A DNA stretch of 22,811 nucleotides. Origin: Rhodoferax sp. Lineage in GTDB: Bacteria; Pseudomonadota; Gammaproteobacteria; Burkholderiales; Burkholderiaceae. Positions within the stretch are counted from its first letter, which is position 1. Every line of letters begins with the position of its first letter. The stretch covers positions 1-22,811 of the forward strand of contig JAIFMT010000210.1 of NCBI GenBank assembly GCA_020048295.1. The letters run 5' to 3'. Positions 866-19,960 of this stretch are shown here, in pieces. The notes beneath the pieces were generated by a model. The model was not told the DNA's origin and searched no databases. It was given only the letters and a program-made list of their open reading frames with translations. Both the position numbers and the translations under genes were made by a program.

Positions 866-939
866 TATTTATATGCCATTTAGGCCTCTATCCCTTATGG
901 AATAAGCGTAACCAGCTACTCTTTCGATACTGAAAAACA
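866..939 (+). repeat. Short palindromic repeat family, copy A (intergenic)
   Basis: A 60-70 bp AT-flanked, imperfectly palindromic element ends directly against the stop codon of the sensor kinase gene. Its core has GGCCT near 883-887, CCCTTATGG near 892-900 and CAGCTAC near 913-919. It aligns without gaps to the copies at 6452-6523, 10138-10200, 12720-12783 and 19664-19735, all in the same orientation on the plus strand. With the inverted repeat at 756-831 it fills most of the 223-bp gap between tyrS and the kinase gene. Confidence 0.7.
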
Positions 940-3900
940 TCACGCCGAAGCGCGCCCGGTAACCCGCAGCAGCACGCGCACCAGATGCGCCATGTTGAAC
1001 GGCTTTCCAACGTGATCATTCATTCCGGCGGCCAGGCAGGCTTCGCGGTCAGAGTCCATGGCGTTGGCGGTCATGGCCACGATGGGCAGTGCGGTGGCAC
1101 TCCAGCGCTCGCGAATGGCTCGGGTGGCGGTTAGCCCGTCCATCACCGGCATTTGCATGTCCATCAGCACCACGTCAAACGCCGCATCGACGGCGCCCAG
1201 CATGTCCAGCGCCTGCTGGCCGTGGTCGGCCAGCGCGACGATGGCGCCCTCGCCTTCGAGCAATTCACTGGCGATTTGTTGATTGACAAAATTGTCCTCT
1301 GCCACCAGCACCCGTAACCCTGTCAGGCTGGGCCGACCGGCCTGGCCAGCCGGGCTACTGGCATCCAGCGGCCGATTGGTATCGGCCACATCAGCGACCA
1401 CCGCCAACGGCACTGAAAAGTAAAAGCGGCTGCCTTTGCCCAGCGCGCTTTGCAACTCCAGTTTGCCGCCCATCAACTCAATGAGCTTCTGGCTGATCGC
1501 CAGTCCCAGCCCGGTGCCACCAAAGCGGCGTGTGGTGGAGGCCTCGGCCTGAGTAAAGCCGGTGAAGATGCGTGCCTGGTTTTCTGGCGCAATGCCAATG
1601 CCGTTGTCTTGCACGGCAAATTTCAGCATGACCTGGCTGGCGCAGCTGTCCATCTGGTGGATGGAGAGTTCTACCTGGCCTTGTTCAGTGAACTTCACCG
1701 CATTGCCGCACAGGTTGATCAGCACCTGTTTGAGGCGCATGGCATCGCCCAGCACCCGTTGCGGCAGGCCCGGGTCGATGGCAAAACGCATCTCCACCGG
1801 CCGCGTGCCAATATAGGCTTGCATGATCACGTCAATGTCATCGACAAGTTGCTTCAGGGCAAACGGATGCGGGTCCAGCGTCATGCGTCCGGCCTCGGCT
1901 TTGGACAGGTCAAGAATGTCATTGAGCAGCCCCAGCAGCGACTGCGCGGCGGCTTCGCTCTTGGCGGCGTAATCGGCCTGCCGTGGGGTCAACTCGGTCT
2001 TTCCCAGCAGCGTGAGCATGCCCAAGATCGCGTTCATGGGGGTGCGAATTTCATGGCTCATATTGGCCAGAAACTGACTCTTGGAGCGCGATGCCAGTTG
2101 CGCCGCCTCGGTGGCCTGCACCAGTTCGGTGATGTCCACCCCAAAGCCTACGGTGCAGCCATTGGACATGCGCCGCTCGACGATGCGCAGCGTGCGCCCG
2201 CTGCTGAGCAGCTGGGTTCGCTGTGACTGCGCCTGCCGGTGCTGCGCCAGCCGCTCTGCCACCCATTGATCAATCTGCCCGGCGGCATCGGCGTACTGGC
2301 CGTGTTCGGCACCGTAACGAATGATCGCCTCAAAGCTGTTGCCCCGCACAATGGCCGGTGCCAACAGCGGAAACAGCGCCAGATAGGGCGCGTTAAACAT
2401 GGCAAGACGGTCTTGGTCGTCAAACAGCACAAACGCATTGTCCAGTGCGTCGATCGAACCGCGCAACAGCTCGGCGTTATGCTGTGCCAGCGCTTCCACC
2501 CGGCGGCGCTCGGTAATGTCTTCAAACAGGTAAAAGCGCCCAAAATACTGGTCGTTCGCGTCACGAATCTGCGTCGTGTAGCGGCGGATGGTGCGGTCTT
2601 GGGTAAAGGCAATTTCGTCTTCGAGCGTATCGCGGTTGTCCCAGTCATGCAGTGGCAGACACGAGGCGAGGTAGCTTGCCGGTTCTGCCAGTTGGCACAA
2701 ACTGGCGGCAGTGATGTCGTCGTTGGTCAATTGCCCACTGCGCAGACCGTCAGCAAGGTGGGCGATGCCCCAGATATCGCAGAAGCGGGTGTTGAAATAC
2801 AGCACTTTGCCGCTCTGGTTGTCCACCACCAAAAACCCCAACGGCGACGAATTGGACATCATCTGCAACAGCGACTGGTTCCAGCGCAGCGTCTGCTCGG
2901 CCTGCTTTTTGGCGGTGATGTCGATGCGGATGGCGACATATTTGGCAATGTTGCCATCGTTGTCAATGAACGGTGCGATGAAGGTATCGACCCAGAAAAT
3001 CGTGCCGTCCTTGCTGCGGTTGCACACCTCGCCACGCCAGGGCAGGCCAGAGGACATGCGTTTCCACATGGCACGCCAAAAATCATTGCTGTGGTAGGCT
3101 GAGTTGACCAGTCGGTGGTCTTGGCCGATCAATTCCTCGCGGCTGTAACCGCTGGTTTCACAAAATGCCTCGTTGACATCCAGAATGCGCCCATCACGGT
3201 CGGCGGTGGAGACCAGCCCCAGCAAGTCCAGCGTGCTCAGCAAGGCATCGTTTTCACGCAGCGCGGTCTCCAGCTGGCCTTGCGAGCGGCGCCGCTCGGT
3301 GATGTCGGACTGAATGGCCATGAAACCATTGATGGCACCGTCGTCGTCGTGCAGCGGCTGGATTTCAAGCGCCAGCCAGAAGTCATTGCCCTGTTTGCTG
3401 CGGTTGAGCACCTCGCCAGTAAAGGTGTCGCCCTTGGCCAGCGCCTCACGCATTCGGGCAATGGTCAATGGGTCAGTCTGTGCGGTTTGCAGCAGCGCCG
3501 GCGAGCGTCCCACCACCTCCTGGGCGCTGTACCCGGTGATGCGTTCAAACGCCGGATTGACCCAGGTGATGCGTCGATCCAGATCGGTGATGACCACCGA
3601 GTTTGAGGTGTTCTGTGCCACCAGCGCGAGGCGTTTGAGGTCTTGCGTCATGCGCCTTGCCAACAACTCGGCCTTTTGCCGCCCACTGGCTTGCTGTTGC
3701 AACAGCAAGGCCAGCAACAGGCTGGTCAAAGCGCCACCCAGCCCCACCAGCCAGGGCACCGGGCTGGCCATTTCTGCCTCAAATTGGGTGCTGCTGTGGG
3801 TGCTCAAGGTCAATTGCCGCCCCAGCAGTGGCAACACCTGACTCGCGTGGAATTGCTGCCCGCTGGCTAACTGGTTTTCAAACAGCAGGTTGTCAGCCAG

Positions 3901-4692
3901 TTGATCCGCAACCAGGTCGCTGTTGCTGTCGGTCAGGCTGAAGTGCAAGGCGTTGCCCAGCACCTCATCCAGACCCGCCAGCAATTCCACCATCACCATC
4001 GGTGCGGACACCAATCCCAGCAGCGCATCGCGGCGCTCGGTGGCCGAATTCAGCCGCGCCACCTTGCGGTAAACGGGCAGGTAGATGATGGCTCCTGCGC
4101 TGGCCTGGCCGCCCTGCACCAGCTTGATCGGTGCCGTCATCACGGGTACGGCACTGTCAATCGCCTGCTCGATGGCGGCGCGCCGGCGTGTCTCAGAGCC
4201 CACATCGGTGCCGAGTGCGCCCTGGTTGTGAATCGCCGGCTCGATGAACTTCACAACAAACGCGCTGTCCGGGTGGGCTTCGCCCAGGCGGCGGATGGCA
4301 AAATCGGCCCCGCCATCGGCGCGCTCGCGGGCGATGAAGTCCGCCTCGTCGCTGCGCGGCACCGGCGCGATAAAGCCAAAGCCCCGCACACCAGGAAACT
4401 CGATTGACACGTCCCGCGCAAAAACATAATCGGCAAATTCGCTGCGGCTCACCTGCTCGTTGGCAGCAAAAAGTCCGCGCACGCCGCTCAAGCCCGACAC
4501 CGGATGCAGCAGGCGGCGCGTAATTTCATCGGCCAGGCGCTGCTGTACGCGTTGGTACTGCAATTCGGTTTGCACCTGGTTGCGGTACTGGAGAAAAAAC
4601 GCCAGCCCCAGCGACAAGGCCGTGCCACCCAAACACAGGCTGAGTGCCAATACAAATCCGGTGCCGAGTTGGCGCTTGGGCCAAAATGCCAT
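940..4692 (-). CDS. CHASE / multi-PAS hybrid sensor histidine kinase
   Basis: This 1250-residue inner-membrane hybrid kinase has an N-terminal TM segment (about residues 12-34). A periplasmic CHASE-type sensor domain follows (about 65-260, with [10 protein letters not shown] and IYLPVYR), then a second TM (about 311-332). Four cytoplasmic PAS-like segments start near 355, 482, 603 and 735; the first three end in DITERRR/DITAKKQ-type linkers. The HisKA domain carries the phospho-acceptor His880 in [12 protein letters not shown]. The HATPase shows NAVKFTE, DNGIGI and GGTGLGL. A C-terminal receiver domain carries Asp1178 in [13 protein letters not shown]. All catalytic residues appear intact, and no HPt domain is attached. 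CHASE domains bind small extracellular ligands, but the ligand here cannot be read from sequence. No partner response regulator lies nearby, so it is an orphan that would pass phosphate to an unlinked HPt or regulator. It is divergent from dtd, with a 76-bp shared upstream region. Confidence 0.93.
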
Positions 4693-5264: not shown

Positions 5265-6419
5265 ATGTCGCTGGTTTTTGAACGTCCTTCCCTAAGGCAC
5301 CGCGTGTTGCCCTGGCTCAGTGGCTTTGACGGGCTGCTGGCTTTTGCCGTGTTTATCCTGGCGTGCGCCGGGCTGATGACCATGTATTCGTCGGGCTTTG
5401 ACCACGGCACACGCTTTGAGGACCACGCGCGCAACATGCTGCTTGCCGGTTTCATCATGTTTGTGGTGGCGCAAATTCCGCCGCAGCGGCTGATGGCTTT
5501 GGCCGTGCCCTTGTATCTGCTGGGGGTGGCGCTGCTGATTGCCGTGGCCGTGTTTGGCGTGACCAAAAAAGGCGCGCGACGCTGGCTCAATGTGGGCATG
5601 GTGATCCAGCCCAGCGAAATCCTCAAAATTGCCATGCCGCTGATGCTGGCCTGGTGGTTCCAGAAGCGCGAGGGGCAACTGCGGGCGTTGGATTTTCTGG
5701 TGGCCGGTGTGTTGCTGGCGGCGCCAGTGGGCCTGATCATGACGCAACCCGACCTGGGCACCGCTCTGCTGGTGCTGGCGGCGGGTCTGTCGGTCATCTT
5801 TTTTGCCGGTTTGAGCTGGGGTCTGGTGGCGCCACCCTTGTTGTTGGCGCTGGTGGCCATTACCCTGCTGGTACTGTTTGAGCCCGAGTTGTGCGCCGAC
5901 GGCGTGTCGTGGCCGGGCTTGCGCGACTACCAGCAACAGCGTATCTGCACCTTGCTGGACCCCACGCGCGACCCGCTGGGCAAGGGCTTTCACATCATTC
6001 AGGGCATGATTGCCATTGGCTCGGGCGGCTTTTGGGGCAAAGGCTTCATGCAAGGCACGCAAACCCACCTGGAGTTCATCCCGGAGCGCACCACCGACTT
6101 TATTTTTGCCGCTTTTTCCGAAGAATTCGGATTGTTTGGCAACCTGTTGTTGATTGCCGCCTTTGTCTTCCTGGTGCTGCGCGCGCTGGCGATCGCCCTG
6201 GAGGCCCCCACCGTGTTTTCGCGCTTGCTGGCGGGTGCGGTGGCGATGATTTTCTTTTGCTACGCCTTCGTCAATATGGGCATGGTCAGCGGGATTTTGC
6301 CGGTGGTGGGCGTGCCCTTGCCATTCATCAGTTATGGGGGCACGGCCATGGTGACCTTGGGGCTGGGCGTGGGTATCTTGATGTCGATCGCCAAGTCCAA
6401 GCGGCTGGTACAGTCGTGA
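5265..6419 (+). CDS. rodA: Rod-shape determining peptidoglycan glycosyltransferase RodA
   Basis: RodA is a SEDS-family integral membrane glycosyltransferase that polymerises lipid II into glycan strands for cell elongation, working with the class B PBP2 (MrdA) and the MreBCD complex. The 384-residue protein has about ten hydrophobic segments. It shows the SEDS signatures QPSEILKIA (115-123), QPDLGTAL (161-168), LDPTRDPLGKGFHIIQ, and FIPERTTDFIFAAFSEEFG with the putative catalytic Asp278. Near the C-terminus is GVPLPFISYGGTAM. RodA is favoured over FtsW by TTDFIFA and overall length. The mreBCD-mrdA genes usually next to rodA are not beside it here; dtd is the upstream neighbour. Confidence 0.95.
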   Translation: MSLVFERPSLRHRVLPWLSGFDGLLAFAVFILACAGLMTMYSSGFDHGTRFEDHARNMLLAGFIMFVVAQIPPQRLMALAVPLYLLGVALLIAVAVFGVTKKGARRWLNVGMVIQPSEILKIAMPLMLAWWFQKREGQLRALDFLVAGVLLAAPVGLIMTQPDLGTALLVLAAGLSVIFFAGLSWGLVAPPLLLALVAITLLVLFEPELCADGVSWPGLRDYQQQRICTLLDPTRDPLGKGFHIIQGMIAIGSGGFWGKGFMQGTQTHLEFIPERTTDFIFAAFSEEFGLFGNLLLIAAFVFLVLRALAIALEAPTVFSRLLAGAVAMIFFCYAFVNMGMVSGILPVVGVPLPFISYGGTAMVTLGLGVGILMSIAKSKRLVQS

Positions 6420-6451: not shown

Positions 6452-6523
6452 AATTTATATGCGTTTTTGGGCTGTAACCCTTATCCATAAATCGGTGAAA
6501 GCTATTTAATTGATATTAAATGG
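6452..6523 (+). repeat. Short palindromic repeat family, copy B (intergenic)
   Basis: A 70-bp element in the rodA-flaG gap begins TTTATATGC and continues through GGGCTGTAACCCTTAT and AGCTATTTAATTGATA. It aligns without gaps to copy A (866-939): both share TTATATGC, then CCCTTAT at the same spacing, then AGCTA and GATA. It lies just upstream of the sigma-28-type promoter and may also serve as the rodA 3' end structure. Confidence 0.7.
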
Positions 6524-9826: not shown

Positions 9827-11287
9827 ATGATGTCACCCGAACCCACCCTCGAACGCCTAGGCGTTGCCAAATCCCTGTTGCTCACCCCCTTTGGTCTCGA
9901 TGAATCGCACCTGGCGCGGGCGCTGGCGGAAATCCGCGCGCACAAGGTCGATGAAGCCGACCTGTATTTTCAGTACACCCGCAGCGAGGGCTGGAGTCTG
10001 GAAGAAGGCATTGTCAAGACCGGCTCGTTTTCCATCGACCAGGGGGTTGGGGTGCGCGCCGTCAGCGGGGAAAAAACCGCGTTTGCCTACTCGGACGATA
10101 TTTCAGAAGCATCGCTGCTTGATGCCGCCCGCACTGTAAGATCAATTTCGTCTGTAGCCCGCTCTGGTAAAGCGAAATTAGCTACAAACAAAATAGCATC
10201 ATCGCGCATTCTCTATGGCGGCCTGGACCCGATTGCCAGCCTGGACAGCAGCGCCAAGGTGGCCTTGCTGGAAAAGGTTGAGAAGCTGGCGCGCGCCAAA
10301 GACCCGCGCGTGGCGCAGGTGATGGCCGGGCTGGCCGCTGAATACGATGTGGTGCTGGTGGCGCGCGCCGATGGCACACTGGCCGCCGACGTGCGCCCGC
10401 TGGTGCGCCTGAGCGTGACGGTGATCACCGAACAAAAAGGCCGCCGTGAAATGGGCTCGGCCGGTGGTGGCGGGCGCTTTGGCTTTGCCTATTTTGACGA
10501 TGCGCTGATCAGCCAGTACGTCGATGAAGCGGTCAGTGCTGCGCTGACCAATCTGGACGCCCGCCCTGCCCCAGCCGGTGAAATGACCGTGGTGCTGGGC
10601 CCGGGTTGGCCGGGCATCTTGTTGCACGAAGCCATTGGGCACGGCTTGGAGGGCGACTTCAATCGCAAGGGCTCCAGTGCTTTCAGCGGCCGCATTGGCG
10701 AGCGGGTGGCGGCCAAGGGGGTCACGGTGCTTGATGACGGCACCATTGCCGACCGGCGCGGCTCGCTCAATGTCGATGACGAGGGCAACGCCAGCGGCCG
10801 CAACGTGCTGATTGAAGACGGCATTTTGCGCGGCTATATCCAGGACGCGATGAACGCCCGTCTCATGGGCGTCAAACCCACCGGCAACGGCCGGCGCGAG
10901 AGCTACGCCAGCGTGCCACTGCCGCGCATGACCAACACCTACATGCTGGCCGGCGACAAGTCCCCTGAAGAAATCGTCGCCAGCATGAAAAAGGGGCTCT
11001 ACGCCACCAACTTTGGCGGCGGCCAGGTCGATATCACCTCGGGCAAGTTCGTGTTTTCCGCCAGCGTGGCGTATTGGGTGGAGAACGGCAAGATTTTGTA
11101 CCCGGTGAAAGGTGCCACGTTGGTGGGCAGCGGGCCGGAATGCCTCAAGCAGGTCAGCATGATCGGCAATGACATGAAGCTCGACAGCGGTGTCGGCACC
11201 TGCGGCAAGGAAGGCCAGAGCGTGCCAGTGGGTGTTGGCCAGCCGACGTTGCGACTCGATGCCTTGACCGTTGGCGGTACGGCTTGA
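9827..11287 (+). CDS. tldD: Metalloprotease TldD
   Basis: TldD forms a heterodimeric zinc protease with TldE/PmbA that cleaves small unfolded peptides. In enterobacteria it matures microcin B17, degrades the CcdA antitoxin and takes part in modified-peptide processing. The 486-residue protein carries the metal-binding HEAIGHGLEGD motif (His267, Glu268, His272). The C-terminal half is typical of the family (NVLIEDGILRGYIQDAMNARLMG, then GFxxxGGQVDITSGKFVFSAS-like text). Two tandem ATGs (9827, 9830) and an upstream in-frame TTG are possible starts. No tldE partner is in the window. Residues ~104-125, with SISSVARSGKAKLATNKIAS, are encoded by a copy of the dispersed repeat (10138-10200). This is a lineage-specific insert in a region that is otherwise variable. 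Confidence 0.95.
   Translation: MMSPEPTLERLGVAKSLLLTPFGLDESHLARALAEIRAHKVDEADLYFQYTRSEGWSLEEGIVKTGSFSIDQGVGVRAVSGEKTAFAYSDDISEASLLDAARTVRSISSVARSGKAKLATNKIASSRILYGGLDPIASLDSSAKVALLEKVEKLARAKDPRVAQVMAGLAAEYDVVLVARADGTLAADVRPLVRLSVTVITEQKGRREMGSAGGGGRFGFAYFDDALISQYVDEAVSAALTNLDARPAPAGEMTVVLGPGWPGILLHEAIGHGLEGDFNRKGSSAFSGRIGERVAAKGVTVLDDGTIADRRGSLNVDDEGNASGRNVLIEDGILRGYIQDAMNARLMGVKPTGNGRRESYASVPLPRMTNTYMLAGDKSPEEIVASMKKGLYATNFGGGQVDITSGKFVFSASVAYWVENGKILYPVKGATLVGSGPECLKQVSMIGNDMKLDSGVGTCGKEGQSVPVGVGQPTLRLDALTVGGTA
10138..10200 (+). repeat. Short palindromic repeat family, copy C (inside tldD, in frame)
   Basis: This element has TCTGTAGCCC, GGTAAAGCGA and AGCTACAAA at the same spacing as the rseA copy (19664-19735); the two align without gaps over more than 30 bp of core. 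It is AT-rich compared with surrounding tldD sequence and is translated in frame as part of TldD. Confidence 0.7.
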
Positions 11288-11340
11288 CTGGTTGACGGTG
11301 GCTGGCACGGCATGGCAACTGGGCCCTGTGCGTGCGGTTT

Positions 11341-11385
11341 GGGGATTCGCAATCTGTGAGGTTTATAGCGTTATGCGAAGACCCC
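11341..11385. repeat. Near-perfect inverted repeat downstream of tldD
   Basis: GGGGATTCGCA (11341-11351) is mirrored by TGCGAAGACCCC (11374-11385), with 22 nt between. A third related half-site, TTTCGCTTATCTGG, follows at 11397-11410. No T-run follows, so a terminator is doubtful. The layout of repeated TTCGC half-sites resembles ends of mobile elements or recombinase binding sites. It lies beside a transposase remnant but cannot be assigned to a known element by eye. Confidence 0.5.
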
Positions 11386-11524
11386 AGTTAAGAGAGTTTC
11401 GCTTATCTGGCAGCACTGACCGTCCCAACTTTCGGAGATTGTCATGTCTGAGATTGCAGCGTTGCACCCGGTCATTCGGACCTGGTTGTTCGAGGATCCA
11501 CTTTCCTGGTATGTTCCGGCGTAG

Positions 11525-11799
11525 GGCCACATCGTCAAACTCGAAAACCAGTTGAGACAAGAAGTCCAGCCGATTCTCAACGTCCTGCAAGCGCAGGTGG
11601 CCAAACTTGGCTATTGCAGCGATAACAACGTCAAGTCTGTGAACAAGCCAGGCTGATGGCGTTGATTGCCGTGGCCCGCCAAGACCATTCTCCCCACTGG
11701 CGTGAGCGTTTTACAAAGCCTGCGCCGCTGCAGGCAGATGCCACGCCGATGCTGGCGATGACGCACCGTTTGTCGATAGGCTGCCAGAACTGGAACTGA
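11525..11799 (+). pseudogene. IS1182-like transposase remnant, frameshifted
   Basis: One frame reads LQAQVAKLGYCSDNNVKSV and stops at 11654-11656. The next frame, starting at 11653, continues LMALIAVARQDHSPHWRERF, then TKPAPLQADATPMLAMTHRL. Joined by one missing base, this matches the central part of IS1182-type DDE transposases (ADAGYCSEANV...PLIAxGRxxHHxxxxERF...MRHRL). The match then stops and the downstream TPEGxALYxxRK/VEPVFG portion is missing. The N-terminal half is also absent; the stretch before 11525 has an in-frame TAG and no recognisable homology. It is therefore an internally deleted, inactive fragment. The 525-bp region between tldD (ends 11287) and era (ends 11814) holds only this and the inverted repeat at 11341-11385. 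Confidence 0.6.
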
Positions 11800-11813
11800 G
11801 ACAGGCGCTTCGC

Positions 11814-11978
11814 TTACTCGTAACCAAACGAGCGCACGCGCGCTTCGTCGTCGGCCCAACCCGAGCGCACCTTGACCCACATTTCGATGAACACCTTGGC
11901 ATCCATCAGCCGCTCCAGCTCAACCCGGGTTTCCATGCCGATGCGCTTGATGCGCTCGCCCTTGTCGCCAATCACCAC
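11814..11978 (-). pseudogene. era: Out-of-frame C-terminal KH domain of Era
   Basis: This frame encodes [40 protein letters not shown] and WADDEARVRSFGYE, ending with TAA at 11814-11816. That is the canonical Era C-terminus, including the GDKG loop of the type II KH domain and the WVKVxSGWADDE signature. It is not in frame with the upstream era reading frame, which stops at 11972-11974. The first KH strand (the IAATIVVERxxxKGM portion in relatives) is missing between the two frames. The segment has kept good coding character, which suggests a recent lesion or a sequence error. Confidence 0.85.
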
Positions 11979-12781
11979 TTGCCACGGCCAGCCTCTTCTT
12001 CAAATTTGTCGATGACCACGGTCGAGGTGTAGGGCAGCTCGTCGCCGGTCAGGCGGAACAGCTTTTCGCGCACCATCTCAGCAGCCATGAAACGCTCGCT
12101 GCGGTCGGTCAGCTCGTCGGCGGCGTACCACCAGGCTTGTTCGGGCAGAAATTTTTCGCAAATGCCCAGCAGGCGCTCAATGTCCTTGGGGCTTTTGGCC
12201 GACATCGGCACGTATTCGGCAAATTGGTGCTTTTCTGCCATGGTCTGCAGCCACGGCGCAATGTCGCCGCGGCGGTGAATGTTGTCGAGCTTGTTGGCAA
12301 TCAGCAGCGTGGGGATTTTTTTGTCCAGCAGCGCCAGCACGCGCGCGTCGGCCGGGGTAAAGCTACCGGCTTCCACCACAAACAAGATCAGATCGACATC
12401 AGCCACCGCGCCCACCACGGTTTTGTTCAGCGACTTGTTCAGCGCGTTGCCGTGCAGCGTCTGAAAACCCGGCGTATCAACAAACACAAACTGCGTGGCA
12501 CCCAGCGTGTGCATGCCGGTGATGCGGTGGCGCGTGGTTTGCGCCTTGCGCGAGGTGATGCTGATCTTTTGCCCCACCAGCGCGTTGAGCAGCGTTGACT
12601 TGCCCACATTGGGTTTGCCAACAATGGCGATCAGGCCGCAGCGCTGGCCTGCTACCGGGGCCTCCACCGGCCCGGCAGGACGCATATCGCGGCGCAGGCC
12701 CGCCAGCAATTCTTCAACATCATTTTGGTCTTTAGCCCCCGTCCCATCTGCGCTAGTAGCTATATTATTTGTAGTATTCAT
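11972..12781 (-). CDS. era: GTPase Era, truncated before the KH domain
   Basis: Era is an essential GTPase that binds the 3' end of 16S rRNA through its KH domain during 30S maturation. This frame gives 269 residues: a 40-residue N-terminal extension, then G1 GKPNVGKST (55-63), G3 DTPGF, G4 NKLD, and the linker ending [11 protein letters not shown]. It stops with RGKW and TGA, about 15 residues after the G domain would normally lead into the KH domain; relatives are ~300 or more residues. The KH domain follows in another frame (11814-11978). Total length from start to the KH stop is 968 nt, not a multiple of three. The start overlaps the rnc stop by 4 bp (ATGA). The first ~21 residues are encoded by a dispersed repeat (12720-12783). 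Confidence 0.85.
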
Positions 12782-12783
12782 GA
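12720..12783 (+). repeat. Short palindromic repeat family, copy D (forms the era start and N-terminus)
   Basis: Read on the plus strand this has CATTTTGGTCTTTAGCCCCC, TCTGCGCTAGTAGCTA and a terminal TTCATG. These align without gaps to the rseA copy (19664-19735: ATTTTGGCCTGTTGCC, TCTGCGCTGACAGCTAC, TTCATG). On the minus strand it supplies the era ATG, the rnc stop overlap and the peptide [20 protein letters not shown], which is unlike Era proteins elsewhere. Confidence 0.75.
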
Positions 12784-13464
12784 TTTTCCTTGGGACTTGA
12801 TTTTTTGCAGCATGGCGCTGGCGGCAGCTTGTTCACCCGAGCGGCGTGAGCCGCCAATGCCGCGCTCGCTCAATTTCAGTTCGGCAATGGCGCATTCCAC
12901 ATCAAAGGTTTGCTGATGCGCCGCACCCTGCGTACACACCACCCGGTAACTTGGCAGCTGCATGCGCCGGCCTTGCAGCCACTCCTGCAGCTCGGTTTTA
13001 GGGTCTTTGCCCAGGCCGGCCATGGCGGCGTTGATGGCCAAACCTTCATAAAGCCGGCGCACCAGCGCCCGCGCGGCAGCAAACCCGCCGTCCAGGTACA
13101 CCGCGCCGATCAGCGCTTCGACGACATCCGCCAGAATGGAAGGCCGCTTTTGGCCACCCGAGCGCAATTCACCTTCGCCCAGCCGAATGACCGACGGCAG
13201 CTCAAGCTTGACGGCCAACTGGTGCAGCGTGTCCTGGCGCACCAGGCTGGCCCGCACGCGCGACAAATCGCCTTCAGGCAAGTCTTTGAGCTGCTCATAC
13301 AGCAATTCAGCCACACACATGCCCAGCACCGAGTCGCCCAGAAACTCCAGGCGTTCATAGTGGTCAGCTGAAAAACTGCGGTGCGTGAGCGCCAGCGTCA
13401 GCAGCTGCGTATTGGCAAACTCATGCTGCAGGCGCTGTTGCAGCGCCGCCAGGTCTGCGTTCAA
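12778..13464 (-). CDS. rnc: Ribonuclease III
   Basis: RNase III cleaves double-stranded RNA, processing the 30S rRNA precursor and structured mRNAs. The 228-residue protein has the signature [12 protein letters not shown] (37-48, with catalytic Glu40 and Asp44), the second acidic cluster [16 protein letters not shown] (112-127), and a C-terminal dsRNA-binding domain (about 155-225, ending [16 protein letters not shown]). The start is TTG at 13464. It is preceded by AGGTG at 13474-13470 with 5-nt spacing, whereas the nearby ATG (13469) is out of frame and stops after two codons. The rnc stop overlaps the era start by 4 bp. The order lepB-DUF4845-rnc-era is the usual betaproteobacterial operon. 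Confidence 0.96.
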
Positions 13465-13488
13465 ACCATCACCTGTGCTTCCACGCGA

Positions 13489-13842
13489 CTATTTGGAGTG
13501 ACCGGAGTACTTGAGCGTCAGGTACGCCGGGCCGGCCAGGTGAATCTCGCGCTGGTAAGCAAAGCTGACCACCACCTTGTCGCCCTCTTTGGTCACGTCA
13601 AGGTCTTTGCCGGTGATGGAGCTGATGGCATCAATGGCGGTAGCCTTGTCAAAAATCGAGCGCACTTCGGGCACGGTGTTGCCCTCAGAGGCCTTTTGCA
13701 CCGCCTTGGTGATGGCCTGGTATTCCAGCAGCGTGGGGAACACCTGCGCTGCCACCACGCCGGTGGCCGCCAGCACCACAGCCACAAACACCAGGCCAAT
13801 GAACGAAATGCCGCGTTGGCCGGATTTGAAACGGGTTGTCAT
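13489..13842 (-). CDS. DUF4845 membrane-anchored protein
   Basis: This 117-residue protein has one N-terminal membrane segment (about residues 11-33, GISFIGLVFVAVVLAATGVV) preceded by basic residues, followed by a small soluble domain that probably faces the periplasm. It resembles the DUF4845 family found between lepB and rnc in many proteobacteria; the biochemical role is unknown. The N-terminus also recalls type IV pilin-like GxSFIGL leaders, but no peptidase site is evident. The chosen ATG at 13842 has a strong AGGAG site 6-7 nt upstream, placed directly after the lepB stop. An earlier in-frame start at 13872 would lie inside lepB and lacks this site. Confidence 0.9.
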   Translation of the reverse strand: MTTRFKSGQRGISFIGLVFVAVVLAATGVVAAQVFPTLLEYQAITKAVQKASEGNTVPEVRSIFDKATAIDAISSITGKDLDVTKEGDKVVVSFAYQREIHLAGPAYLTLKYSGHSK

Positions 13843-13855
13843 CTTGGTCTCCTGA

Positions 13856-14821
13856 TCAGTTGAACGAACCAATGCGTTTGAGGCTGCTGAAATTCATCCA
13901 GACAAAAAACGCCTTGCCCACAATGTTTTTATCCGGCACAAAGCCCCAGTAGCGCGAATCGAGCGAGTTGTCGCGGTTGTCGCCCATCATGAAGTAATGG
14001 CCCTGCGGCACCTTGCACACCACGCCCTCGACACTGTAGCGGCAATTGCTTTTGAACTCAAATTCGTCAGCACCGGGCACAAACGCCGGGCGGTTGTCGT
14101 CGTTGAGCAGGCGGTGCTTCTTGTCGCCCAGCGCTTCTTCAAACTGCTTGAAGTAGCGCATCGCGTCGGCATCAAAAAACTCGGGCAGCGTATTGGTTTC
14201 AATGGCTTTGCCGTTGATGCTCAGGCGCTTGTTGAGGTAGGCCACCTCGTCACCGGGCACACCCACCACACGCTTGATGTAGTCCAGGCTGGGCTTGGGC
14301 GGGTAGCGAAACACCATCACATCGCCGCGCTGCGGGGCAGTACCTTCGGTGATCTTGGTGTTGATCACCGGCAAGCGCAGGCCGTAGTGGTATTTGTTGA
14401 CCAGAATCAGGTCGCCCACCAGCAGCGTGGGAATCATCGAGCCTGAGGGAATCTTGAACGGCTCAAACAAAAACGAGCGCAAGATGAACACGCCAATGAT
14501 CACCGGGAACAGCCCGGCCGTCCAATCCAGCCACCAGGGTTGCGCCAGCAGCGCTTTTTTGGCTTCGGTCACGTCGCCGTCGATCCTGGCAATACCGAGC
14601 TTGGTCAAGTCTTCATTGCGCTTGATCGTCTGTGCCTCCAGCGCGGCCGCCGCTTGCTGGCGCCGGGGCAAAAACACAAAGCGCTCGGCCAGCCAGTAGG
14701 CACCGGTGACCACTGTGGCCAAAAAAAGCAGCAACGCAAAGTTGCCCTCGACCACACCAAAATACCAGGCGCCCACATACGCGACAAACGCCGCCAGAAT
14801 CACAGAAGTCAATGCCTGCAT
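13856..14821 (-). CDS. lepB: Signal peptidase I
   Basis: LepB is the inner-membrane Ser/Lys protease that removes signal peptides from Sec- and Tat-exported proteins. The 321-residue protein has N-terminal membrane segments (about 4-22 and 28-46) and a further one before the catalytic domain (about 101-120). It shows catalytic Ser128 in IPSGSMIPTL, Lys183 in DYIKRVVGVPGDEV, and box E GDNRDNSLDSRYWGFVP near the C-terminus. The start ATG (14821-14819) overlaps the lepA stop by one base (TGATG), implying coupled translation. A longer frame extending into lepA is not supported. Confidence 0.96.
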   Translation of the reverse strand: MQALTSVILAAFVAYVGAWYFGVVEGNFALLLFLATVVTGAYWLAERFVFLPRRQQAAAALEAQTIKRNEDLTKLGIARIDGDVTEAKKALLAQPWWLDWTAGLFPVIIGVFILRSFLFEPFKIPSGSMIPTLLVGDLILVNKYHYGLRLPVINTKITEGTAPQRGDVMVFRYPPKPSLDYIKRVVGVPGDEVAYLNKRLSINGKAIETNTLPEFFDADAMRYFKQFEEALGDKKHRLLNDDNRPAFVPGADEFEFKSNCRYSVEGVVCKVPQGHYFMMGDNRDNSLDSRYWGFVPDKNIVGKAFFVWMNFSSLKRIGSFN

Positions 14822-16632
14822 CACGCGTCCACTTTCAAAATGGCCAGGAACGCCTCTTGCGGCACCTCGACCGAGCCAATCTGCTTCATGCGCTTCTTGC
14901 CTTCCTTTTGTTTCTCCAGCAACTTGCGCTTGCGCGAAATATCGCCACCGTAGCACTTGGCGATGACGTTCTTGCGCAGCGCCTTGATGGTTTCACGGGC
15001 GATCACGTTAGCCCCGATGGCCGCCTGGATGGCCACGTCGTACATCTGGCGTGAAATCACCTCGCGCATTTTCGACACCACGGCTCGGCCACGGTACAAC
15101 GACTGCGAGCGGTGCACGATGATGGAGAGTGCATCCACCTTTTCGCCGTTGAGCAAGATATCGACCTTGACGACGTCAGCGGTGCGGTATTCCTTGAACT
15201 CATAGTCCATCGAGGCATAGCCGCGCGACACGCTCTTGAGCTTGTCAAAAAAGTCCATCACGATCTCGCCCAGCGGCATCTCGTAGGTCAGCACCACCTG
15301 GCGCCCCTTGTAGGCCATGTTCATCTGCACGCCGCGCTTCTGGTTGGCCAGCGTCATTACCGGGCCGACATATTCCTGCGGCATATACAAATGCACGGTA
15401 ACGATGGGTTCGCGGATTTCATCGAGCCGGCCCTGATCGGGCATCTTGGACGGGTTTTCGACCATCTTCACTTCACCATCAGCCTGCACCACCTGATAGA
15501 CCACGCTGGGCGCGGTGGTGATGAGATCCTGGTCAAACTCGCGCTCCAGGCGCTCCTGCACAATTTCCATGTGCAGCAGGCCAAGAAAGCCACAGCGAAA
15601 GCCAAAGCCCAACGCCTGCGACACCTCGGGCTCGTAGTGCAACGAGGCATCGTTCAATTTCAGCTTTTCCAGGCTGTCGCGCAGGCCTTCGTACTGGTTG
15701 GCCTCGGTGGGGTACAGCCCGGCAAACACTTGAGGCTGAATTTCCTTGAAACCCGGCAACGGCACCGTCGCAGTGGCGGCCGCGCCGCCGCTGCCCGGGC
15801 GGATCAGCGTGATGGTGTCGCCCACCTTGGCCGCCTGCAATTCGCGGATGCCGGCAATGATGTAGCCCACCTCGCCGGCCTCAAGCGCCTGGCGCGGCTG
15901 GTTGGCCGGGGTAAAAACCCCCAGACTGTCGGCGTTGTAGGTGGTCTCAGTCGCCATCATCTTGATGCGCTCGCCCCGGGCCAGCCGTCCATCGACCACC
16001 CGCACCAGCATCACCACGCCCACATAAGAGTCAAACCAGCTGTCGATGATCATCGCGCGCAGTGGCCCGGCCGGGTTGCCCTTGGGGGCCGGAATGCGCG
16101 CCACCACAGCTTCGAGGATGTCGTCAATGCCCATGCCGGTCTTGGCCGAACAAGGAATGGCGTGCGCGGCATCGATGCCAATCACGTCTTCAATTTCTGA
16201 CTTGGCGTTTTCCGGGTCGGCGTTGGGCAAGTCCATCTTGTTGAGCACCGGCACCACTTCCACACCCAGATCGAGGGCGGTGTAGCAATTGGCCACGGTT
16301 TGCGCTTCCACGCCCTGGCTGACATCAACCACCAACAAAGCCCCTTCACAGGCGGACAGCGAGCGGCTGACCTCGTACGAAAAGTCCACGTGGCCGGGGG
16401 TGTCGATCAAATTGAGGTTGTAGGTCTGGCCGTCTTGTGCCTTGTATTGCAGTGCCGCGGTTTGCGCCTTGATGGTGATGCCGCGCTCTTTCTCGATGTC
16501 CATCGAGTCGAGCACCTGGGCTTCCATCTCGCGCTCCTGCAGGCCGCCGCAACGCTGGATCAGCCGGTCGGCCAACGTCGATTTGCCATGGTCAATGTGG
16601 GCGATGATCGAAAAGTTTCTGATGTGGTTCAT
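14821..16632 (-). CDS. lepA: Elongation factor 4 (LepA)
   Basis: LepA/EF4 is a translational GTPase related to EF-G that acts on the ribosome, affecting initiation or back-translocation and 30S biogenesis. The 603-residue protein starts [20 protein letters not shown] (P-loop 11-19) and has DTPGHVDF and NKMDLP. Its C-terminus is LepA-specific ([20 protein letters not shown]). The start at 16632 matches the family; the frame remains open upstream for 63 codons without homology and crosses an intrinsic terminator. It is followed directly by lepB. A separate promoter may lie in the 205-bp gap after mucD. Confidence 0.97.
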
Positions 16633-16673
16633 TCGGGAAGACCGACAAGGTAGGTGAAAGCCTTTTTCAGCAG

Positions 16674-16704
16674 AAAAAAGGGCGCGGTCTGCGGCGACGC
16701 GCCC
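16674..16704 (-). terminator. Intrinsic terminator between mucD and lepA
   Basis: On the minus strand GGGCGCG (16704-16698), an 11-nt loop, CGCGCCC (16686-16680) and TTTTTT (16679-16674) form a textbook Rho-independent terminator, 42 nt before the lepA start. It would end the sigma-E operon transcript after mucD. If the promoter-like element at 16744-16749 is active, it would instead act as a leader terminator for lepA. Confidence 0.8.
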
Positions 16705-16743
16705 TGTGCCAACCGTGGCTGGCTTCTGCAAAGCTGAGGGCGC

Positions 16744-16749
16744 ATTGTA
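16744..16749 (-). promoter_or_regulatory. -10-like element upstream of lepA
   Basis: TACAAT on the minus strand lies 112 nt before the lepA ATG and is followed by a GC-rich discriminator (GCGCCCT). No clear -35 is seen. It lies upstream of the intrinsic terminator at 16674-16704, so its transcripts would have to pass that hairpin. Confidence 0.35.
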
Positions 16750-16837
16750 GGCAAAAAGGCAGGCCTGCTGGCCGCCCGGCGCAGCCGGTGGCCTTGGGGC
16801 CCCGGGCAACGCACCGAACACGCGCCAAATTGGCCGC

Positions 16838-18301
16838 CTATTTGAATGGCCGAATCACCACAATCTGCGCCAAATCCCCCCGGCGCACCAGCAAGCCCAG
16901 CGGCTTGTTCTTGTCCACCTTGGCCAGCGCCGCCTCGAATGTTTTCAGGTCAGTCACCTGGTAGTTGCCCACCTGCATGACCACATCGCCTTCACGGATG
17001 CCGGCGCGGGCAGCACCGTCAGTCGCTGAATCAACCCGAACCCCGCCAGAAATTGACAGCTCGGCCTTCTGATCTTTGGTGAGTTCGCTCACCGCCAGGC
17101 CAATGGACTCGCCAATTTTGGACAGCTTTGGCTTTTCTTCCTTGTCGCTGGGTTTACGGGCAGATTTTTCGGCCTCGATCTCGACAACCGTCACCGTCAG
17201 CTCTTTGGTGACACCGCGGCGAAACACCGTCAGCGTGCTGCGGGTGCCGGGTTTGGTAGCGCCCACCATGCGTGGCAAGTCGCTGGATTTTTCAACCGGC
17301 TTGCCATCAAATTTGAGGATGATGTCGCCCGCCTCAACGCCCGCCTTGTCCGCGGGCGCACCGGCCTCGACATTGCTGACCAGCGCACCCTGTGGCTTGC
17401 CCAGACCAATCGACTCGGCCACCTCTTTGCTGACCGGGCCAATCTGCACGCCAATGCGGCTGCGGGTGACGCGGCCATGGGCGCGCAACTGCTCGCTGAC
17501 GCGCATTGCCTCATCCATCGGGATGGCGAACGAAATGCCCATCGAGCCACCCGAGCGCGAGTAGATCTGGCTGTTGATGCCCACCACCTCGCCACGCATG
17601 TTGATCAGCGGCCCACCCGAGTTGCCGGGGTTGATGGCCACATCGGTCTGGATGAAAGGCAGGTAGTCGCCGGTGTCGCGTTGTTTGGCGCTGACAATGC
17701 CGGCCGTCACGGTGTTTTCCAGGCCAAACGGCGAGCCAATCGCCATCACCCATTCGCCCACCTTGAGCCGGCCCACGTCGCCCACCTTGACGGCGGGCAG
17801 GCCGGCCGCGTCGATCTTCACCACCGCGACATCGCTGCGCTTGTCGGCACCCATGATTTTGGCCTTGAACTCGCGCTTGTCGGTCAGGGTCACCACCACT
17901 TCGTCGGCCCCTTCCACCACATGCGCATTGGTCATGATCACGCCATCGGCACTCAGAATAAAACCGGAGCCCACACCGCGCGGCTGCTCTTCTTCTTGCG
18001 GCCCGCGTCTGGGCGACGGGTTGGCGCGCGGAATATTGGGCATTGGCAGCCCAAAGCGGCGGAAAAACTCCTGCATTTCCTTGTCACCGAAGTTGCCGTG
18101 GGGTGTCTCGGCGCTGACTTTTTCCAGCGTGCGGATGTTCACCACCGAAGGGCCAACCTGTTCCACCAGATCGGTGAAGTCGGGCAAGGCGCGCGCTTGT
18201 GCGAAGGCGGCAGTGGCAGGCAAGAATGCCGCACCCGCGCCTGTCGCCAGCACGCCAGACAGCGCGTACGCCAGCCAATTGTTCCTGTTGAATTGCATCA
18301 T
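16838..18301 (-). CDS. mucD: Periplasmic serine protease MucD (DegP/HtrA family)
   Basis: The 487-residue Do-type protease/chaperone degrades misfolded envelope proteins and damps sigma-E activation. It has a Sec signal peptide (about 1-34, ending TAAFAQA) and a trypsin-like domain with triad His127 (TNAHVVEG), Asp157 (SDVAVVKI) and Ser228 (NPGNSGGPL). Two PDZ domains follow (about 280-365 and 400-487). The ATG pair at 18301/18298 has an AAAGG site 6 nt upstream. It follows rseB by 40 bp, the arrangement of algU-mucABCD, but without a mucC/rseC gene. It would be co-expressed with rpoE. Confidence 0.95.
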
Positions 18302-18341
18302 CTTCAGCCTTTCCAGATTGATAAAGCGGGTAAATAGAGTC

Positions 18342-19367
18342 TCATTTTTTTCTCTCAAGCCCCTGGGCAAACAAAACCAGCGTGGCCACCGGCACCTCGC
18401 CAACGGCGGTCAGCCACCAGTCGCCCAACTGGCGCATCAGCACATGCGTCGCTCCCATGACCAGCGGTGTTTGCACCTGCGTGGGCTGATGCCGCGTGGC
18501 ATCAAAGGGCTCGATGAACAGCGACACCGAAGCCAAGCCGTCCGAATAGACACATTGCAGGGTGCCACGCGGGTCGCCGGGTAGCTGGCCCTCCATCCGC
18601 TTGTTGCAGCTGATGGGCTTGAATCCGGGCACCCCGGAGGTTTGCAGCCAGCCCTCTTGCCCGGCGGTGGTTTGCACCAGGTCAGCGCGGCGCAGCTGGT
18701 AGCCCTGGGTGTTGTTCATCTGCCCGCTGAGTTTGGCCATGACCACCGGCGCACCCAGTTGCAGTTCGGAAAATGCCGCCTGCTCCAGCACCGCCTGGGT
18801 CGCATCCAGAGTTTGCAGCTTGATCACCAGGCCGGTTCTTTTCTCGGTCCAGATGCGATAGCCAAAGCGAAGCGCATCAACCGGCTGCAACTGCGCCACG
18901 TCAGCGGCCAGACCAGCCACGCGCTCGTGCCCAATGGTCTTCAAACGGTAAAACTGCGCCAGCGATGAATCGACCTGGCTTAGCAGATCGGGAAACAGCC
19001 CGAGCGACTCGCGCCGCTCCTGGATGGCCACCCGGCTGGCTGGAAAAAACGTGACCACCTGATCGTTGCGCCGAAAGGTCGAGCGTGGCTCGCCCGTCAG
19101 GGCATCGACACGCTCCATTTGCTGGTTTCCGTCACACACATGCCAGATGCGCGACGACGACATGTACTGACTGGTCGTCACCACAAAGGTGCCAATGTAG
19201 GCGCGCCCGCGCGAGGCGGTGTGCAAACGCAGCAACCATTGGTCCAGCGAAGGCGATACCGGCAGTGCCGATGCTGCCCCGGATGCCGATGCCGGAGTCT
19301 GTGCATGAACCAAGCCACCGGTCAAACACAGTAGCGCAGTCAGCAGGCATAACGCCAGCTGCTTCAA
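18342..19367 (-). CDS. rseB: Periplasmic sigma-E regulator RseB (MucB)
   Basis: RseB binds the periplasmic part of the anti-sigma factor RseA and shields it from DegS-type cleavage until lipid or LPS signals release it. The 341-residue protein has a signal peptide (about 1-22, LLTALLCLTGGLVHA) and MucB/RseB family landmarks. These are YIGTFVVTTSQYMSSSRIWH near 57-76, the R-rich segment with REPSTFRRN-like text near 93-101, RFGYRIWTEKRTGLVIK, and VYSDGLASVSLFIE. Its start overlaps the rseA stop by 4 bp (ATGA). The gene ends in a run of seven A's reading into the TGA. Confidence 0.93.
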   Translation of the reverse strand: MKQLALCLLTALLCLTGGLVHAQTPASASGAASALPVSPSLDQWLLRLHTASRGRAYIGTFVVTTSQYMSSSRIWHVCDGNQQMERVDALTGEPRSTFRRNDQVVTFFPASRVAIQERRESLGLFPDLLSQVDSSLAQFYRLKTIGHERVAGLAADVAQLQPVDALRFGYRIWTEKRTGLVIKLQTLDATQAVLEQAAFSELQLGAPVVMAKLSGQMNNTQGYQLRRADLVQTTAGQEGWLQTSGVPGFKPISCNKRMEGQLPGDPRGTLQCVYSDGLASVSLFIEPFDATRHQPTQVQTPLVMGATHVLMRQLGDWWLTAVGEVPVATLVLFAQGLERKK

Positions 19368-19960
19368 CGCTGACCCTCATCGAAGGTGGCGTTGCGCAAA
19401 AAGCCCGACGGCATTTGCAACGCGGAGGTACCGCCAAACTGGCGATGCGCGGCCAGCAAGGCATCAAGCCGGGGGTCACGCAGCATGACGGGCTGCGCCG
19501 CGCCGACCGAAGGCGTGCCAGCGCCCGCCGTCTCGGCCAGCTGTACAGCCGTCCCAGCGGTGTGTCCTGCGAGCAGTGCATACCCCTGCCAAGCCAGCAC
19601 GCTCACCAACGCCACCGAGGCCAACCCGGCAACACGCTGCCACCAGCCCTCGTTGGCACTCTGATTTTTTATGCTATTTTGGCCTGTTGCCTTTATGGGT
19701 TCTGCGCTGACAGCTACAAATTTAATATTTTCATGGGCCAGTTTGTGTTGCAGCTTCTGCACGAACGCCGGGTCGTGCGGGCGAGCGCTGGCAGCGCCGG
19801 AGCGCAGCACTTCACCCACCAGGTGGTAACTGTCCCAGGTTTGCTGCGCCTGCACCGATTGCGTCAAATACGCCATCACACGGTCAAGCTCGGGCACCGG
19901 CAGTTCACCGTCGGTCAGCAAAGAAACGCGTTGCGCGTCTTGATCATCTTGGTTCAACAT
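19364..19960 (-). CDS. rseA: Anti-sigma-E factor RseA (MucA)
   Basis: RseA is a single-pass inner-membrane protein that sequesters sigma-E. The 198-residue protein has the cytoplasmic RseA N-terminal domain (about 8-70: RVSLLTDGELPVPELDRVMA, then WDSYHLVGEVLR). Next come a linker, one TM segment (about 107-130, VAGLASVALVSVLAWQGYALL) and a periplasmic tail that RseB would bind. Linker residues 76-99 are encoded by a copy of the dispersed repeat (19664-19735). The gene follows rpoE by 37 bp and is coupled to rseB by an ATGA overlap. Confidence 0.92.
   Translation of the reverse strand: MLNQDDQDAQRVSLLTDGELPVPELDRVMAYLTQSVQAQQTWDSYHLVGEVLRSGAASARPHDPAFVQKLQHKLAHENIKFVAVSAEPIKATGQNSIKNQSANEGWWQRVAGLASVALVSVLAWQGYALLAGHTAGTAVQLAETAGAGTPSVGAAQPVMLRDPRLDALLAAHRQFGGTSALQMPSGFLRNATFDEGQR
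19664..19735 (+). repeat. Short palindromic repeat family, copy E (inside rseA, in frame)
   Basis: Read on the plus strand this has TATGCTATTTTGGCCTGTTG, CTTTATGGG, GCGCTGACAGCTAC and TTAATATTTTC. It is the most complete copy in the window and aligns without gaps to copy A over ~60 bp. On the minus strand it is translated as ENIKFVAVSAEPIKATGQNS within RseA, between the sigma-binding domain and the membrane helix. Confidence 0.8.

Follow-up and report, generated by a model that had tools for sequence, protein, structure and literature searches.

How does one palindromic repeat come to be translated in several unrelated genes of the same genome? The question is raised by a 22,811-nucleotide stretch of Rhodoferax sp. 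(GenBank assembly GCA_020048295.1, contig JAIFMT010000210.1, positions 1 to 22,811 of the forward strand), hereafter the window, in which five dispersed copies of such a repeat had been noticed, three of them within the reading frames of tldD, era, and an rseA-like gene. A first-pass annotation had taken these for insertions of a mobile element, comparable to the Rickettsia palindromic elements. The analysis described here leads to a different answer: the coding copies stand on ancestral reading frames, with no gain of 21 residues wherever this can be tested, and it is the choice of codons that carries the motif. In genomes rich in copies the sites persist over approximately 20% divergence, and in a low-copy sister genome the majority of these sites have decayed, mostly at equal or nearly equal length. 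On balance, we favor the interpretation that the repeat, some 64 bp long, serves throughout the genome as a DNA signal read by a putative sequence-specific trans-acting protein, a signal that can be compared with uptake signals or REP/RAYT systems and that we assign to neither.

The motif, its abundance, and its imprint on codon choice

A 64-column profile was built from 400 kb of the relative genome G008, with the window excluded; this training stretch holds 85 profile sites above 8 bits, and its reversed sequence holds none. When scanned with this profile, the window yields exactly five sites above 5 bits, which score 34.7–57.6 bits and all lie on the minus strand, and the reversed window, used as a control, yields zero. 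These are the same five copies that had been noticed by inspection, recovered here by an independently trained profile. Their ungapped plus-strand alignment stands as far as the core is concerned and is to be corrected in two respects, namely the length of the element, about 64 bp, and the strand of all five copies. The consensus has a GC content of 28–30% and starts with TGCTAT or TACTAT, and the consensus sequences of the G008 and G009 types are unlike in the core. Two of the copies are intergenic: copy 1 (869..932, 57.6 bits) lies just past the stop of a minus-strand open reading frame (ORF) at 940-4692, by eye a sensor kinase, and copy 2 (6455..6518, 54.5 bits) follows the ORF at 5265-6419, which is RodA/FtsW-like by eye. 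The remaining three are translated. Copy 3 (10135..10198, 34.7 bits) is located within tldD (9830..11287, plus strand, Pfam PmbA_TldD domains), to which it is antisense, in phase AS2; copy 4 (12713..12776, 52.1 bits) codes for some 21 residues directly after the start codon of Era (11972..12781, minus strand, Pfam MMR_HSR1), and copy 5 (19667..19730, 51.6 bits) falls in the linker of the RseA-like anti-sigma factor (19364..19960, minus strand, Pfam RseA_N), both in phase S2. These results support a palindromic family with dispersed copies, three of which are translated (in tldD, era, and rseA); the reading in different frames or strands applies to TldD, which uses the opposite strand and the other open phase, and not to Era and RseA, which share both strand and phase.

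The family extends well beyond the window. The genus was represented by 89 genomes, being that of the first Rhodoferax match in a search with RseB (two Rhodoferax loci and five others), and was searched with a 16-base gapped pattern at no more than one mismatch. The pattern is matched in 74 of the 89 genomes, with counts of 0 to 545 compared with 0 to 3 for a reversed-pattern control, and is thereby over-represented. In what follows, genomes with at least 40 sites (38 genomes) are termed high-copy and the other 51 low-copy, the latter comprising G045 with 20 sites, G085 with 24, and 49 genomes with fewer than 20. At the level of the family, the pattern is matched in 122 of 399 genomes, with at least 20 sites in 56. 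Sites of at least 20 bits number 86 in 400 kb of G009, 81 in 400 kb of G008, and 40 in 200 kb of G011, which corresponds to a mean spacing of 4.6–5.6 kb, and the profile carries 50 bits of information for the G009 type and 58 bits for the G008 type. The spacing is more even than under null placement in G009 (0/4000) and in G008b (P 0.02). Among the papers listed in searches of open-licence PMC texts, we recognized none that describes this 64-bp motif.

The imprint on coding sequence becomes apparent when the coding segments are randomized with synonymous codons at the usage of the genome. Not one of 20,000 recodings reaches the observed score in any of the three window genes, the best synonymous recoding attaining 3.1 bits for the TldD copy (observed 34.7), 24.7 for the Era copy (observed 52.1), and 30.7 for the RseA copy (observed 51.6). 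Among copies lying wholly within genes of the relatives, 69/72 exceed the scores of their recodings by 3 standard deviations or more (median 6.1, lowest 2.6), an excess that is inflated by the selection of these copies by score; the reversed control of the same regions contains 0 sites at 12 bits. The scores for one coding site are 31.7 bits (G009) and 0.1 bits (G011), the two versions having the same length and 87% of their residues in common. Taken together, these observations suggest that in free-living bacteria a demand at the level of DNA is powerful enough to direct codon choice over 64-bp stretches of core genes such as trpF, argJ, aroA, tldD, and era.

The era frame of the window ends at 269 residues, compared with about 342 in most of 120 relatives among the matches listed, and its C-terminal part seems to run on in another frame at about 11820-11990, a frameshift that is either real or a product of sequencing. 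Between tldD and era, the stretch 11290-11810 holds no convincing intact gene and by eye resembles a decayed one.

Coding copies and the question of insertion

The spread of a mobile palindromic element into genes by in-frame insertion would place the motif beside the Rickettsia palindromic elements, which are described as in-frame insertions in PMC3733652, and the two are alike in being translated palindromic repeats in unrelated genes. They differ in that no net insertion was found for the motif, 12/26 of the copies compared with Hydrogenophaga being beyond judgment, and no spanned copy gains close to 21 residues relative to orthologues or solved structures. In tldD and era, relatives free of the motif have a segment of equal or almost equal length, an outcome that the first-pass annotation had itself named as contrary to its view. 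The TldD segment is of equal length in all 30 loci read, and a score of 14 bits or more is reached at the site in 12/20 high-copy and 0/10 low-copy loci; outside these 30 loci, some genomes (for instance G010 and G034) have tldD matches longer by 11–12 bases. The solved TldD structure 5nj5, which we take to be that of E. coli, differs by two residues at the motif segment (net +2). For Era, the site reaches at least 14 bits in 16/19 high-copy loci and 0/11 low-copy loci, in which the N-terminus is of equal length or two residues shorter and the motif is absent. The corresponding figures for RseA are 14/18 and 1/12, the one low-copy locus being that of G085 (24 sites), and since the RseA linker varies in length, this gene decides neither for nor against insertion. 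The copies in era and rseA lie in variable regions, a point in favor of insertion; in TldD the segment is no block of extra residues.

A wider comparison was made with Hydrogenophaga, of which 800 kb contain no site at 12 bits, and in which 26 coding copies have an orthologue. The alignment spans the element in 14 of these (two of them only 27% identical, and one in a 95-residue frame that is probably no gene), and the other 12 do not span it and cannot be judged. Net changes across the 14 are 0 in five (three proteins; a further protein of net 0 is presumably DUF1415), -9 to +5 in six, and +9 to +11 in three; none comes near +21 residues. Solved structures give a similar picture, with TrpF aligning gap-free through the element to its three best solved relatives (1lbm, 1dl3, and 1v5x), ArgJ being ungapped relative to 3it4, carrying a single gap at the edge of the element relative to 1vra, and gaining four residues relative to 1vz6, and AroA being five residues longer than 3nvs. 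Nor is there an empty site among the 49 and 50 aligned copies of the genomes G009 and G033, which are discussed below. Insertion is contradicted at TrpF and ArgJ and was rejected wherever it could be put to the test (Hydrogenophaga orthologues, solved structures, the G009/G033 pair, and the equal-length G009/G011 site); it could still hold for some intergenic copies, and as an account of the family we regard it as extremely improbable. A repeat that is translated in many genes, we would caution, need not have been inserted there.

Besides the net gains of three to eleven residues at some sites, the frames in which the coding copies are read are a further point that insertion can claim. By our own gene calls, 207 copies in G009, G008, and G011 divide into 75 inside genes, 32 across a gene end, and 100 in intergenic DNA. 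The 75 coding copies are distributed over AS2 (34), S2 (20), and the other four frames (21), such that 54/75 occupy the two frames left open by the G008-type consensus, in which AS2 is free of stops, S2 is closed only by a terminal stop, and the other four contain internal stops. The window genes conform to this preference, with Era and RseA in S2 and TldD in AS2. Among the 132 non-coding copies, the frames free of stops are S2 in 48, AS2 in 40, AS0 in 32, S0 in 21, AS1 in 9, and S1 in 4.

Persistence and decay of sites between genomes

Persistence was scored as one hit per site in a score test, and for the pair G009/G033 a copy had to reach 16 bits or more in the partner genome. In this pair (92.65% identity), 49/49 aligned G009 copies and 49/50 aligned G033 copies are shared, 37 and 5 copies, respectively, not being aligned, and the sole odd G033 copy faces a same-length site in G009 that falls below the threshold. 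From G009 to the more distant G011 (80.2% identity), 28/30 aligned copies persist (15/17 coding and 13/13 non-coding; 56 not aligned), and in the reverse direction 23/25 (15 not aligned), both misses being cut alignments that are motif-like. From G011 to the low-copy G045 (82.95% identity), only 7/21 aligned copies persist (19 not aligned), and the contrast between the two pairs is significant (P 7e-6), so that persistence is higher at the larger distance provided that both genomes are high-copy. Of the 14 sites lost in G045, eight are of equal length within 3 bases, four differ by 4-12 bases, and two face a gap of at least 30; one of the 14 is still motif-like. An alternative dialect was sought in G045 and the idea rejected, the 14 most over-represented 10-mers listed resembling ordinary coding words. 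This keep-or-lose contrast between related genomes makes the search for the reader protein a tractable problem of comparative genomics.

Conserved columns of the motif also change slowly. In intergenic copies of G009/G033, 21/546 positions in conserved columns have changed when the columns are defined from these two genomes and 42/697 when they are defined from G008, compared with 171/1274 positions in the 60-bp flanks (P 7e-11 and 2e-7, respectively), 2044/21051 in other intergenic DNA, and 82/423 in low-information columns of the motif.

Outside genes, the copies are densest in convergent spacers (34 in 14.9 kb), with 86 in 77.3 kb of tandem and 8 in 29.8 kb of divergent spacers. This enrichment, together with the dyad symmetry, is what a structural RNA or terminator family would lead one to expect. 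We nevertheless consider that explanation very improbable: the window contains 0 Rfam matches above the gathering score, and membership in an Rfam RNA family was set aside; the palindrome arms show no covariation (30 pairs, largest z 2.6); one palindrome pair is a G-G mismatch in 74/81 G008 copies; and coding copies are found on both strands.

Candidate reader proteins and related repeat systems

If the repeat is a DNA signal with a protein reader, it would be kept in place in lineages that retain the reader, and the loss or change of one trans-acting factor in the low-copy lineages would leave the sites to decay. Our guess at the kind of factor, a doubtful one when taken by itself, is biased recombination of the uptake-signal kind, because the motif contains 50-58 bits, compared with the approximately 13 that by our estimate would be enough to find it, and because its core differs between genomes and the permissive frames are filled; a chromosome-binding protein or a RAYT transposase would be alternatives. 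A drive of the uptake type would account for in-place writing, dialects, and even spacing, and the competence families do not separate the two groups of genomes. In its broadest form, and held tentatively, the proposal is that the motif may belong to a novel class of chromosomal signals, as long as 64 bp, in the Burkholderiales, written onto ancestral genes by codon choice, kept by biased uptake and recombination or by an architectural protein, and abandoned site by site throughout the genome once its reader is lost.

Several observations weigh against reading the motif as such a signal. No reader protein was found: ComEC is present in 83/89 genomes of the genus (missing in 3/38 high-copy and 3/51 low-copy genomes) and HHH_3, a family broader than ComEA, in 88/89, so that neither divides the genomes by copy number, and loss of competence genes was rejected as the cause. 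Third codon positions within the motif appear slowed when the columns are the genomes' own (18/204 changed vs 11175/72314 outside, P 0.008) and not when they are derived independently from G008 (33/266, P 0.20), and this line of support was dropped as not robust; first and second positions show no clear rate difference in G009/G033. Certain coding copies show net gains in the Hydrogenophaga comparison (+3 to +11), which leaves 12/26 copies unjudged, and the motif may have been lost in Hydrogenophaga itself. In G008a (0.11) and G011 (0.17), evenness of spacing does not reach significance, the gene calls in G009, G008, and G011 are home-made, and no frame of the G009-type consensus is free of stops, the two preferred ones included.

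The DNA uptake sequences (DUSs) of the Neisseriaceae are 10–12 bp long, which the motif, at 64 bp, far exceeds, a further point on the same side. In PMC3630211, DUSs are described as abundant, both intragenic and intergenic, divided into dialects, and occurring in dyad-symmetric pairs. The motif is likewise abundant in and between genes, has a core that differs between the G008 and G009 types in the manner of dialects, and is dyad-symmetric; it differs, besides its length, in that ComEC does not separate high-copy from low-copy genomes.

The other system to be weighed is a REP/REPIN-type repeat population with a single-copy, vertically inherited RAYT, by which copies would be kept or slowly rewritten. 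REP elements measure 20-40 bp (PMC3733652), and PMC3733652, PMC8049555, and PMC2817692 describe REP and REPIN sequences as palindromic, present in many copies, preferentially downstream of genes, associated with such a RAYT, and in some copies intragenic. The motif shares the palindrome, the copy number, the downstream preference with its highest density between convergent genes, some intragenic copies, and a RAYT in most genomes of the genus. A PF01797 (RAYT family) protein is found in 79/89 genomes and is missing from 1/38 high-copy and 9/51 low-copy genomes (P 0.04). Of 22 RAYT loci read, 16 came from genomes with at least 40 sites and 6 from genomes with no more than 20; an antisense element lies at the RAYT stop, starting 0 to 53 nt before the gene end, in 14/16 of the former, and a trace of it (12.1 bits) in only one of the latter, that of G045. 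The two high-copy exceptions are G001, which has none, and G053, whose match is another RAYT, followed at 16 nt by an element. Antisense elements within 20 nt of the stop occur at 43/903 genes, however, which puts the chance of a single such site at an ancestral RAYT gene at about 5%; that this site decayed in low-copy genomes is no more than what happens to all sites there. Low-copy genomes moreover retain RAYT with its usual motifs by eye, and RAYT as the sole cause was rejected on this ground. The motif is also longer than a REP element, lacks a terminal GTAG or CGTC tag, and has about a third of its copies within genes (75/207), and transposition would insert, yet the spanned coding copies lack the 21 added residues. 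A REP/RAYT system accounts for the palindrome and the RAYT neighbor and not for the absent residues, and we judge it unlikely.

The RAYT proteins of the genus are about 232 residues long, show, by eye, the HUH and tyrosine motifs typical of such proteins, and are kept in genomes without the repeat, where they may have a role of their own. In G013, a genome almost without the motif, contig C1 holds seven PF01797 matches, three of which have equal scores and cover almost the entire domain, as an IS200-like element would show.

A betaproteobacterial repeat already reported from the same genus is the BRE, which is reported in PMC3110155 from Rhodoferax ferrireducens and Polaromonas with some copies in coding sequences, as are copies of the motif. 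The BRE is given there as approximately 90 bp long, 69% GC in Bordetella, often tandem, and present in four copies in R. ferrireducens, in contrast to the 64 bp, AT-rich consensus, and dispersed placement at 4.6-5.6 kb of the motif; identity of the two was set aside on GC content, length, and copy number, as taken from the description of the BRE and not from its sequence letters. At 756-831, between copy 1 and the first ORF, which is TyrS-like by eye, the window also contains a perfect inverted repeat of 23 bp whose arms enclose a 30-bp loop.

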